In this document: piece after piece, positions 15,479-39,476 of the stretch | Position numbering within the stretch: position 1 is the first letter of the stretch | How the letters are laid out: each line of letters begins with the position of its first letter | Source of the DNA: Methanoculleus caldifontis | GTDB lineage: Archaea > Halobacteriota > Methanomicrobia > Methanomicrobiales > Methanoculleaceae | Direction of reading: 5' to 3' | Length of the DNA stretch: 64,000 nucleotides | Assembly (NCBI RefSeq): GCF_032842345.1 | Contig: NZ_WBKO01000001.1 | Coordinates: forward strand, 372,001-436,000 | Made by a program: the position numbers and the translations under genes | Notes under the pieces: model-generated | What the model was told of the DNA's origin: nothing | Seen by the model: the letters and a program-made list of their open reading frames with translations, nothing else | The model's database searches: none

Positions 15479-15815
15479 GTTAACCACAGTAGACTCAAAG
15501 AGGTGACGAAAGAGTACCCGCACGACATCATCGCGGCTATTCATGGTCTGGCCGAAAAAGGGCTTCTGGTGAGTGAGGGGTCGGGCAGGAGCACGTTCTA
15601 CTACCGTCCCGGCCACCACTCGATGGAAAGTGAAGTGTTCGGAGCTCCCGGGATATGTTCGAAGTCGAGCTCCGAACATTTGGATACGTTGCGCGAGATT
15701 GCAAGGCCGGTCGGATCTGTGCGGAAAACGCCGAGGAAGGTAGTTGAGGCAACGATTCTCCGCCTCTGCGAGGGCAGATACCTGACCCTTGATGACATGG
15801 CCGATCTGCCCTCGC
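15479..15815 (+). pseudogene. Remnant of an AlbA_2/COG2865-type regulator or helicase-like gene (C-terminal part)
   Basis: The translated segment from about 15479 has two winged-helix-like stretches: LKEVTKEYPHDIIAAIHGLA followed by GLLVSEGSG, and VVEATILRLCEGRYLTLDDM. These resemble the C-terminal region of archaeal COG2865 proteins (putative transcriptional regulators with an AlbA_2 ATP-binding domain). The N-terminal ATP-binding part is missing upstream. At 15811 the frame runs into a GCACC/GGTGC repeat, after which the translation becomes Ser/Cys-rich and meaningless. The family match is from memory of the pattern and is moderate. Confidence 0.45.
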
Positions 15816-15875
15816 ACCTTCGGTGCTCATGCTCCTGCTCGAAGCCAAGCTGCTTCTCAAGCTCCGAACGTTGTC
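15811..15875. repeat. Dispersed hairpin repeat (locus 2), interrupting the remnant gene
   Basis: The segment begins CTCGCACCTT-CGGTGCTCAT and continues GCTCC, matching 38201-38226 with one base missing and one or two changes. GCACC-TTC-GGTGC (15814-15826) is the hairpin core. Further on, CTCCGAACGTTGTCCATCGC resembles the GGACGTTCCGTCCGTCGC tail of the 38.2 kb copy. The repeat replaces the expected end of the upstream coding frame. Confidence 0.55.
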
Positions 15876-15909
15876 CATCGCACCCTTCTGCCAGTCGCCT
15901 AAACCGGCC

Positions 15910-36961: not shown

Positions 36962-37930
36962 ATGCGGACTTCGGTCATCTACGGTGACATCTTCACCAGA
37001 CACGATATGGAGGCTCATCCCGAGTCGGGCGCCCGGTTGCGGGTAGCCCTCTCGGGTGTCCCCGATAATGTGCGGTGGCGCGCCCCGGTCCGGGCCACCG
37101 AAGAGGACCTGGAACGGGTCCATCTTCCCCGCTACGTCCGCTGGGTCAGAGAGATGGCGACCGGGACCTGTTTTTTGGATCTGAACACCTACGTCACCTG
37201 CCACTCCTTCGAGGCAGCCTCCTACGCCGCCGGGTCGACCTATGCCGCCGTCGAGCGGGCGCTTGAGGGCGAGCACCTCTTCGCCCTGGTCCGTCCGCCG
37301 GGGCACCACGCGGAGCCCGACCGGGCGATGGGATTCTGCCTCTTCAACAACGCCGCCGTCGCGGCGGCGAAAGCATTGCAATCGGTCGACCGGGTGGCGA
37401 TCCTCGACTGGGACCTCCACCACGGCAACGGGACGCAGAAGGCGTTTTACGGGAGCGACCGGGTGCTCTACTGCTCGGTGCACGAGGAGAACAGTTTCCC
37501 CAAGACCGGGTGGATCGACGAGATCGGGACCGGGGCGGGCCGGGGCTACACCCTCAACGCCCCGCTCGCGGCAGGATGCACCATCGCCGATTACCGGTAT
37601 CTCTTCGCCGAGGTCTTCGTCCCGGCGATCGTCCGGTTCCGCCCCGACGTCCTGATCGTCTCCGCCGGCCAGGACGCCCTCGCCGACGACGAGCACGGGC
37701 GGATGAACCTCGTGCCCGACGACTACGGCACGCTCACCGGGATGCTGGTCGACGGCACGGACCTCCCCCTCGCGCTGACGCTCGAGGGGGGTTACGGCCC
37801 GTCGCTCGGCGAGGGGATCGCCGCTATCTTCCGGGCCCTCCGGGGGGAGCGGCCGGTCCCCGCGGAGAGGCCGCTCCACCGGGGGACGGAGCGGGTCGTC
37901 GAGATCCTGAAGAAGGTTCGGTTTTACTAA
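36962..37930 (+). CDS. Histone deacetylase/acetoin utilization family deacetylase
   Basis: A 322-residue member of the arginase-deacetylase fold. RPPGHHAEP (His115, His116) provides the charge-relay His pair, GFCLFNNAAVA follows, and DWDLHHGNGTQ holds zinc ligands; a third ligand Asp lies in SAGQDALADD, and LEGGYGP closes the site. Substrates may be acetylated proteins, acetylpolyamines or similar. It begins four bases after aglB and ends the long operon, next to the repeat block. Confidence 0.9.
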   Translation: MRTSVIYGDIFTRHDMEAHPESGARLRVALSGVPDNVRWRAPVRATEEDLERVHLPRYVRWVREMATGTCFLDLNTYVTCHSFEAASYAAGSTYAAVERALEGEHLFALVRPPGHHAEPDRAMGFCLFNNAAVAAAKALQSVDRVAILDWDLHHGNGTQKAFYGSDRVLYCSVHEENSFPKTGWIDEIGTGAGRGYTLNAPLAAGCTIADYRYLFAEVFVPAIVRFRPDVLIVSAGQDALADDEHGRMNLVPDDYGTLTGMLVDGTDLPLALTLEGGYGPSLGEGIAAIFRALRGERPVPAERPLHRGTERVVEILKKVRFY

Positions 37931-37931
37931 A

Positions 37932-37975
37932 CGACGTTCCCTCAGGAACGGAGTTCGAGCACCGTTAGGTGCGAG
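37932..37975. repeat. Direct repeat copy 1 with hairpin core
   Basis: Bases 37932-37965 are identical to 38021-38054 over 34 positions. The unit contains GTTCC-CTCA-GGAAC, a small hairpin, followed by GAGTTCGAGCACCGT. In this copy it continues so that GCACC-GTTA-GGTGC (37959-37972) forms a second hairpin. Confidence 0.8.
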
Positions 37976-38020
37976 GTGCGAGCAGCCGGAACTTGAGATA
38001 ACGCGAAGCGTTTTCGAGCG

Positions 38021-38054
38021 CGACGTTCCCTCAGGAACGGAGTTCGAGCACCGT
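38021..38054. repeat. Direct repeat copy 2
   Basis: An exact 34-base copy of 37932-37965. After it the sequence diverges (CAAATGCGAG instead of TAGGTGCGAG), so the second hairpin is weakened in this copy. Confidence 0.8.
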
Positions 38055-38132
38055 CAAATGCGAGCGGCGATGGGCCGAAGGAGCGGGACAGGTGCAACTG
38101 CGGTGCCGGTGCGGAGTTAGGGGTTACCAGAG

Positions 38133-38257
38133 TCTCACGCGAAGCCGCGAAGAACGCGAAGTAGGTCAGCTGTTGACAGCCCCCTTCGCGGCTTCGCGCT
38201 CTCGCACCTAACGGTGCTCATGCTCCGGACGTTCCGTCCGTCGCACTTCGCGTGAGA
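38133..38257. repeat. Long imperfect inverted repeat with inverted GCACC/GGTGC copy
   Basis: The outer arms TCTCACGCGAAG and CTTCGCGTGAGA are perfect complements, as are the inner CGAAGCCGCGAAG and CTTCGCGGCTTCG. Inside the right half, 38201-38219 is the reverse complement of 37957-37975. The element could fold into a long stem in RNA or DNA. Confidence 0.7.
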
Positions 38258-38300
38258 TTATGTCATCCCTCTTGCGCTGTCGACTCACGCAAAGAGAGCC

Positions 38301-39476
38301 TCACCCCTGCGCGGACCGCTTCCGGTCGGGGTCCATGTAGGATACCTCGAATCCGGGCATGACGACCCGCACCACCGGCACCGCCGTCCGCGAGAGGTCG
38401 CAGACGCAGACCCGGTCCGTGTGGGGCCCGACCTCCTCGAGCACCCGCCGGATGTCGAGGTCGAACCGGGGCGTGCTCGCGTCGGGCACCCCGGCGATAT
38501 CGAGGGTCTCCGCGTCGGCAAACCACATCCGGTTGATCCGCTTCAGCCGGTCGTAGCCTGCCTTCCGGAGGACCAGTTCCCGGCCGGGGTCGGTGCGGCC
38601 GCCCTGGAGGTAACTCCCCCGGCTCTGGGCGACCTCGGTCAGCGCCCGGAGCGCCGCGATCTCCGGGGATAGGTGGGTCCCCGATCCGATGACGAGCATC
38701 GCCGGATCCTTCGTGACGGTGTCGTCCGCGGCGGCCGCGACGGTGGGGATGCCGGTCTTTCCGTCGAGCAGCCAGAGGTGGATCGCGATCCCGTTCTCCT
38801 CGAACCGATCGAGGACTTCGCGGGCGGGCGAGGCGCGCTCTATCGTGAGACGGCGGCCGAGATTGCGGTTCCGCTCGGCGATGCTGAGCGCGTCCCGCTC
38901 GATAACCTCAAAGAGGGCGTGCAGGATCGCCTCCTCGACGACGTTGCCGGATGCAAGCCCGTTCGTGTCGCTCCGGAAGAACGGCACGGCCATACCGAGC
39001 GAGTCGTAGGGGTGGAAGACGGCGTTGCTCGGGAGGTAGACCTCCTCGTCGTTTAAGATGTCCCACCCCGGCGTCCAGTGGAGTTTCTCCCCCTGCACGA
39101 GTTCCCGCGGGACGATCAGGTCCTCCGGGTGGACCGCCCGCCCGGGCCCGATCTCCTCGTAGGTCGCGTACTCCATCCGGTCGCCCCGGTACTCGGCGCA
39201 GTAACGCTCGAGCGCCTCCATCATCGCCGAGACCCGGGCATGGATCGGCTCCCTGCCCTTCCCGGCGTGGGCACGGACTCCTCCCCGGGCGGCCCCCGGC
39301 CGGAGTGCCGTATAGACCGGGATCCCGAGACGGTCCAGAGGCGTGACGTCCACGATCTCCGTAACCCCGATCTCCCCCATCAGCGGCTCCACTGCGGCGC
39401 GGGTCTCTTCAGGGGACCGGGAACGGTGCGTTCCATCAAAGTACAACTTCTCTACGGGGCGAATCGTGATTGCCAT
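38301..39476 (-). CDS. ycaO: YcaO-type protein, methanogenesis marker protein 1
   Basis: A 391-residue YcaO-domain ATP-dependent cyclodehydratase-like protein. Segments AHAGKGREPIHARVSAMMEA, ALERYCAEYRG, FEVIERDALSIAERNR and LTEVAQSRGSY hold the conserved Glu and Arg residues of the ATP site. In methanogens this protein is needed for thioglycine formation in the methyl-coenzyme M reductase alpha subunit. Its usual partner TfuA is not adjacent here. It diverges from the DUF2098 gene across a 57-base shared promoter and ends at the repeat block. Confidence 0.9.
   Translation of the reverse strand: MAITIRPVEKLYFDGTHRSRSPEETRAAVEPLMGEIGVTEIVDVTPLDRLGIPVYTALRPGAARGGVRAHAGKGREPIHARVSAMMEALERYCAEYRGDRMEYATYEEIGPGRAVHPEDLIVPRELVQGEKLHWTPGWDILNDEEVYLPSNAVFHPYDSLGMAVPFFRSDTNGLASGNVVEEAILHALFEVIERDALSIAERNRNLGRRLTIERASPAREVLDRFEENGIAIHLWLLDGKTGIPTVAAAADDTVTKDPAMLVIGSGTHLSPEIAALRALTEVAQSRGSYLQGGRTDPGRELVLRKAGYDRLKRINRMWFADAETLDIAGVPDASTPRFDLDIRRVLEEVGPHTDRVCVCDLSRTAVPVVRVVMPGFEVSYMDPDRKRSAQG

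Follow-up and report, generated by a model that had tools for sequence, protein, structure and literature searches.

Dispersed palindromes and hairpin modules with covarying stems in intergenic regions of Methanoculleus

The DNA analyzed here, hereafter the window, is a 64-kb stretch of the Methanoculleus caldifontis genome. Within it, a block of 370 bases fills the gap between the stops of two convergent genes, an HDAC-like gene on the forward strand that ends at 37930 and ycaO on the reverse strand that ends at 38301 (a simple codon model, with the window as its training sequence, was used to call ORFs and genes). Corroborating the original prediction, which was made from the sequence alone, the block contains two exact 34-base direct repeats (37932–37965 and 38021–38054, start-to-start distance 89 bases), whose similarity beyond the exact core reaches 57 nt at 86% identity; a 19-base inverted copy (37957–37975 vs 38201–38219), which lies within a pair of 27-nt stretches with 89% complementarity; and six small hairpins, at 37935–37950, 37959–37972, 37999–38014, 38024–38039, 38204–38217, and 38226–38240. 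The nested long inverted repeat is likewise present, its right arm split by an inserted module (Table 1). The feature extends further than that description: from the HDAC stop onward, an array of HC modules (defined below) is followed by the inverted repeat (IR) to its end, an outer spacer, and a truncated arm from the following IR unit. Compared with shuffled sequence, the block has folding z-scores of −5.2 (DNA, + strand), −6.2 (DNA, − strand), and −4.6 (RNA, + strand). Moreover, the window holds two instances of GAACGGAGTTCGAGCACC at ≤3 mismatches, a count that no shuffle reached, and a sequence search with the block finds 197 matching places in its own genome. With the sum of this evidence, the block is a non-chance structure.

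Table 1. Features of the repeat block and a further HC chain, in window coordinates
Feature	Position	Strand	Remarks
HC array with both 34-bp direct repeats, directly after the HDAC stop	37931..38061	+	Several relatives have like arrays after the stop of the orthologous HDAC gene
X hairpin CGTTCC(CTCA)GGAACG	37935..37950	+	Exact second copy at 38024–38039
Conserved linker GGAGTTCGAG (family consensus GGAGYWYGAG)	37950..37959	+	Second copy at 38039–38048
Y hairpin GCACC(GTTA)GGTGC	37959..37972	+	Diverged second copy GCACC(GTCA)AATGC at 38048–38061
Y-type hairpin ATAACGC(GAA)GCGTTTT (family stem AAAACGC/GCGTTTT)	37998..38015	+	
Remnant of decayed HC module (GCGATGGGCCGAAGGAGCGGG...)	38066..38100	+	Resembles intact module CGGGCCGAAGGGCCG
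IR left arm CTCACGCGAAGCCGCGAAGAACGCGAAG	38134..38161	+	
IR inner loop, ~22 nt	38162..38183	.	
IR right arm (38184–38198 + 38246–38256), split by one HC module	38184..38256	-	IR without insert in relative G015
HC module inside IR right arm: X CGGACG(GAA)CGTCCG, linker GGAGCATGAG, Y GCACC(GTTA)GGTGC	38199..38245	-	Similar modules in IR arms of other copies
Outer spacer, 27 nt	38257..38283	.	Typically 24–28 nt across copies (mode 26), common decayed consensus
Truncated arm (CTCACGCAAAG) of next IR unit	38284..38294	+	
Additional HC chain with two linkers	15801..15895	-	

Repeats of two separable kinds make up a dispersed intergenic system, and the block is one of its loci. The IR is palindromic, with arms CTCACGCGAAG-CCGCGAAG-AACGCGAAG, built of CGCGAAG units around an inner loop of ~22 nt, and neighbouring IR units are separated by outer spacers of 24–28 nt that hold decayed sequence common to the copies. 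This shared, ancestral spacer sequence, where unrelated spacers would be expected, rejects a CRISPR array, in agreement with the spacing argument made originally. The HC module has the form GCGA-[hairpin X]-GGAGYWYGAG-[hairpin Y]-CGA and occurs singly, in tandem with a period of ~46 nt, or within IR arms. Tandem arrays of that period at own-genome loci L013 and L038 alternate GCACC and GCACT units.

The own genome contains 223 occurrences of the arm motif CTCACGCGAAG and one of its reversed control (own-genome counts here and above derive from searches and retrieved stretches); among 35 Methanoculleus genomes, the motif count per genome lies between 0 and 323. A longer version of the motif is found in only 3 of 136 genera in a phylum-wide sample, and records matched by a scan with the HC module are named Methanoculleus, Methanomicrobiales, or Euryarchaeota MAGs. 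Copies thus exist well beyond the block, in its own and in related genomes, and, with the conserved structure described next, this clearly contradicts the possibility that only these copies exist and that no structure is conserved. The two parts multiply independently, since one genome (G001) has 323 arm motifs and 6 HC sites and another (G006) has 48 arm motifs and 108 HC sites.

The stems of the HC hairpins change sequence freely yet stay self-complementary. X hairpins with ≤2 mismatches are formed at 229 of 331 candidate sites, compared to a mean of 94 (maximum 111) after arms are shuffled between modules; the copies are related, and such counts of structures and loops overstate the number of independent events. 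In the commonest length class (15 nt, 122 distinct hairpins), pairs 2–6 exceed all 500 shuffles and several Watson-Crick types are found at each pair. The Y hairpins show a smaller excess (347/522 vs 278 shuffled) and few stem types. X stem sequences vary widely, and the constant parts are the loops, the GGAGYWYGAG linker, and GCGA. Loops are mostly GNA or GNNA closed by a C-G pair, on one strand: over distinct hairpins, GNA accounts for 63/87 X and 36/50 Y loops, and GNNA for 26/32 and 21/39, respectively, vs ~15% and ~12% for GNA and GNNA in a coding-region hairpin control with both strands pooled. GNYA loops outnumber GNRA loops 124 to 12. DNA minihairpins that combine G-C pairs with GNA or GNNA loops are extraordinarily stable (PMC4686876), and because the loops here match this type, they point to folded single-stranded DNA as the probable form. 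Single mismatches in Y stems are G.T in 27 cases and A.C in 5, an excess that is more in keeping with selection on the folded strand than with pure neutrality.

The evidence supports some copies being passengers of MITEs. Eight full MITE copies of 207–293 bp in the own genome (TIR GGCTCTGTTGAAA, also given as GGCTYTGTTGAA) all carry an IR at the same internal site, seven of them have an exact 8-bp TSD, and they hold 0, 1, or 2 HC modules; MITE loci in this genome are labelled L016, L047, L051, and L227–L234. Five near-identical copies (L229, L233, and L230–232) differ mainly by whole modules of 38 or 40 bp, which are flanked by GCGAAG repeats: three have no module, one has the 38-bp module, and one has both. 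Because the 40-bp module also sits at this position in a second subfamily of MITEs, loss through deletion between repeats is a simpler reading than gain. GCGAAG also stands immediately before 35 of 100 modules that begin with TGCGA. MITEs of the same type with HC arrays are found in other Methanoculleus species, and two larger MITEs with this TIR type and HC arrays, from other Methanoculleus records, measure 573 bp (L174:5884–6456, with an 8-bp TSD) and 663 bp (L162:6922–7584). A possible second MITE (L147:2367–2633), with TIR GTACTTCGCTAA...TTAGCGAAGTAC, contains both HC and IR, and ends like its TIR are visible at own-genome loci L008, L042, L051, and L062.

No MITE ends are recognisable at most of the IR and HC copies examined, and the window locus, where neither TIR nor TSD is seen, is among them. 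The original suggestion of a non-autonomous mobile element is supported for copies that lie in MITEs with TIRs and 8-bp TSDs, but not visibly for the block itself. An autonomous partner of the MITEs was not found in the own genome among PF13610 (IS6), PF12762 (IS1595), and PF13737 (IS903-like IS5). IS5-type transposases of relatives were rejected as partner on their differing TIR, which is GCTGTGTTGCATAA in one promising group.

Presence of the element differs between species at the same site. The orthologous gap between the HDAC-like gene and ycaO ranges among relatives from 13 bp, which is empty, to 676 bp; it is 13 bp long in two relatives, several others lack the element, and differing combinations of HC and IR are found in relatives. 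In G015, whose ycaO is the most similar among the relatives, the IR and spacer are present and both HC insertions of the window locus are missing. When the repeats are mapped relative to gene ends, as originally proposed, convergent gaps are favored. The distinct HC-bearing regions comprise 57 convergent, 44 co-directional, and 10 divergent gaps, against a background of 42, 182, and 102, so that convergent gaps are enriched (57/111 vs 42/326, OR 7.1, p 2e-15) and divergent gaps depleted (p 1e-6). Among 40 own-genome IR regions, picked in list order and hence a non-random sample, 26 are convergent, 14 co-directional, and none divergent. This context fits elements that are tolerated at 3′ ends, where a terminator role is possible yet unneeded.

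A functional bidirectional 3′-end element, whose hairpins stop or protect the transcripts of both convergent genes, was among the original suggestions. The strong convergent enrichment of both parts speaks for such a role, as do the orientation of the chains in the window, each of which runs sense to its nearer gene, and the weak excess of sense over antisense orientation in convergent gaps (44 vs 23, p 0.014). Harmless insertion would also yield the enrichment, however, and no clear sense-strand bias emerges overall: co-directional gaps hold 27 sense and 28 antisense elements. Oligo-T tracts are not rarer where elements are present, and no extra oligo-T signature accompanies the elements. Given also the two 13-bp gaps and the relatives without the element, we regard this function as unlikely. 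A structured RNA, also suggested originally, is disfavored: the block folds well as RNA and the stems covary, which speaks for a non-coding RNA gene, but DNA folding is at least as good, on both strands, the best Rfam match scores 19.9 bits vs a gathering score of 168, synteny is not conserved, and the loops are of the DNA type, GNYA rather than GNRA. We consider such a gene very unlikely.

Of the readings that make the repeats mobile in themselves, one holds the HC module to be a single-strand element, similar to IS200/IS605 or attC, with a putative structure-recognising enzyme that would cut at GCGAAG. The precise presence or absence of whole modules at GCGAAG in near-identical MITEs, the strand-specific stable DNA loops, and the independent expansion in copy number would suit this reading; it appears improbable all the same, as Y1 transposase is absent from the own genome and from every high-copy genome, the 40-bp module common to two MITE subfamilies fits loss better than fresh insertion, and strand partition along the G002 chromosome is not significant (p 0.12). 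The same absence bears on genuine REP/BIME/REPIN elements that a RAYT transposase would disperse, which the repeats resemble in being palindromic, intergenic, high in copy number, arranged in linker mosaics, and present in both orientations. PF01797 (Y1_Tnp) is missing from the own genome and scores above cut-off only in low-copy members of the genus (G010, G017, G019, G022, G030, and G033), X stem sequence is unconserved, and no GTAG/CGTC-type tag was identified. A RAYT/IS200 mobiliser is accordingly rejected, RAYT-driven REPs are very improbable, and the original comparison with REP/BIME elements holds for the dispersed, intergenic, palindromic mosaic and not in the strict sense, since Y1_Tnp is absent from the own and every high-copy genome. 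As vehicles, viruses were rejected because viral contigs lack the HC module and no phage match was found, and plasmids because their matches, which were to the IR, were all weak.

The explanation that we favor, and think probable, is a selfish or near-neutral, BIME-like mosaic of DNA hairpins that owes part of its spread to MITEs and is remodelled at short repeats. Counting against it are the lack of an autonomous MITE partner among the families searched, the lack of recognisable MITE ends at most copies examined, the G.T excess, and the weak sense excess in convergent gaps. Copies would spread in part as MITE passengers, and modules would be lost or multiplied locally through slippage or recombination between short GCGAAG and GCGA repeats, presumably when one strand becomes single-stranded and adopts minihairpin folds. 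The elements may then persist chiefly where they are least harmful, at gene 3′ ends and in convergent gaps, and the complementarity of stems could be kept through weak selection that acts on the folded strand or through arm-to-arm copying during replication. As a tentative further possibility, about which we are doubtful, such copying might be self-templating: a 3′ end would fold back at a minihairpin of the C-GNA-G or C-GNNA-G type and be extended with its own 5′ arm as template. Were this so, stem changes would be copied to the partner arm, stems would drift and stay palindromic without functional selection, and the repeat family would be conserved in its folding nucleus rather than in its sequence.

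With hundreds of covarying minihairpins that have DNA-type loops, the system is a natural data set within one archaeal genus. With it one can test how intergenic palindromes endure and evolve where no RAYT transposase is present, and whether stable DNA minihairpins shape genome evolution. Moreover, convergent gaps in Methanoculleus often hold such repeats, which affects the annotation of terminators and small RNAs.

Like the REP, BIME, and REPIN elements of enterobacteria and Pseudomonas, the repeats are short, high-copy intergenic palindromes in mosaics with fixed linkers; here, however, they are archaeal and without a Y1_Tnp/RAYT gene, and X stems vary where loops and linkers are constant. 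Prokaryotic MITEs are matched in TIR, 8-bp TSD, and short non-coding body by at least eight own-genome IR-carrying copies, but many IR and HC copies lack recognisable ends, and modules vary inside the MITE. The loop classes are the same as those of the stable DNA minihairpins d(GCGAAGC) (PMC4686876), and both the IR arm and Y stems contain GCGAAGC itself, although these minihairpins are known as a biophysical motif and tool and not as a genomic repeat family. No earlier description of the repeats was found in the literature searched, save for a possible overlap with prokaryotic satellites of Methanoculleus marisnigri: the parts of that survey considered here (PMC6749651) give 45- and 51-nt families, which may be the same sequences as the ~46-nt HC arrays, and those parts describe tandem arrays only, with no hairpins, dispersal, or MITEs. 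Finally, palindrome arms of CGC(A/G)AAG units occur in diverse metagenomic viral contigs (L283–L297), with no HC modules found and no description in the literature searched; an arm of the form CTCACGCRAAG-CGCRAAG-CGCRAAG is shared with them, sometimes with an opposing inverted arm, and these arms hint at a class of repeats that crosses phyla.
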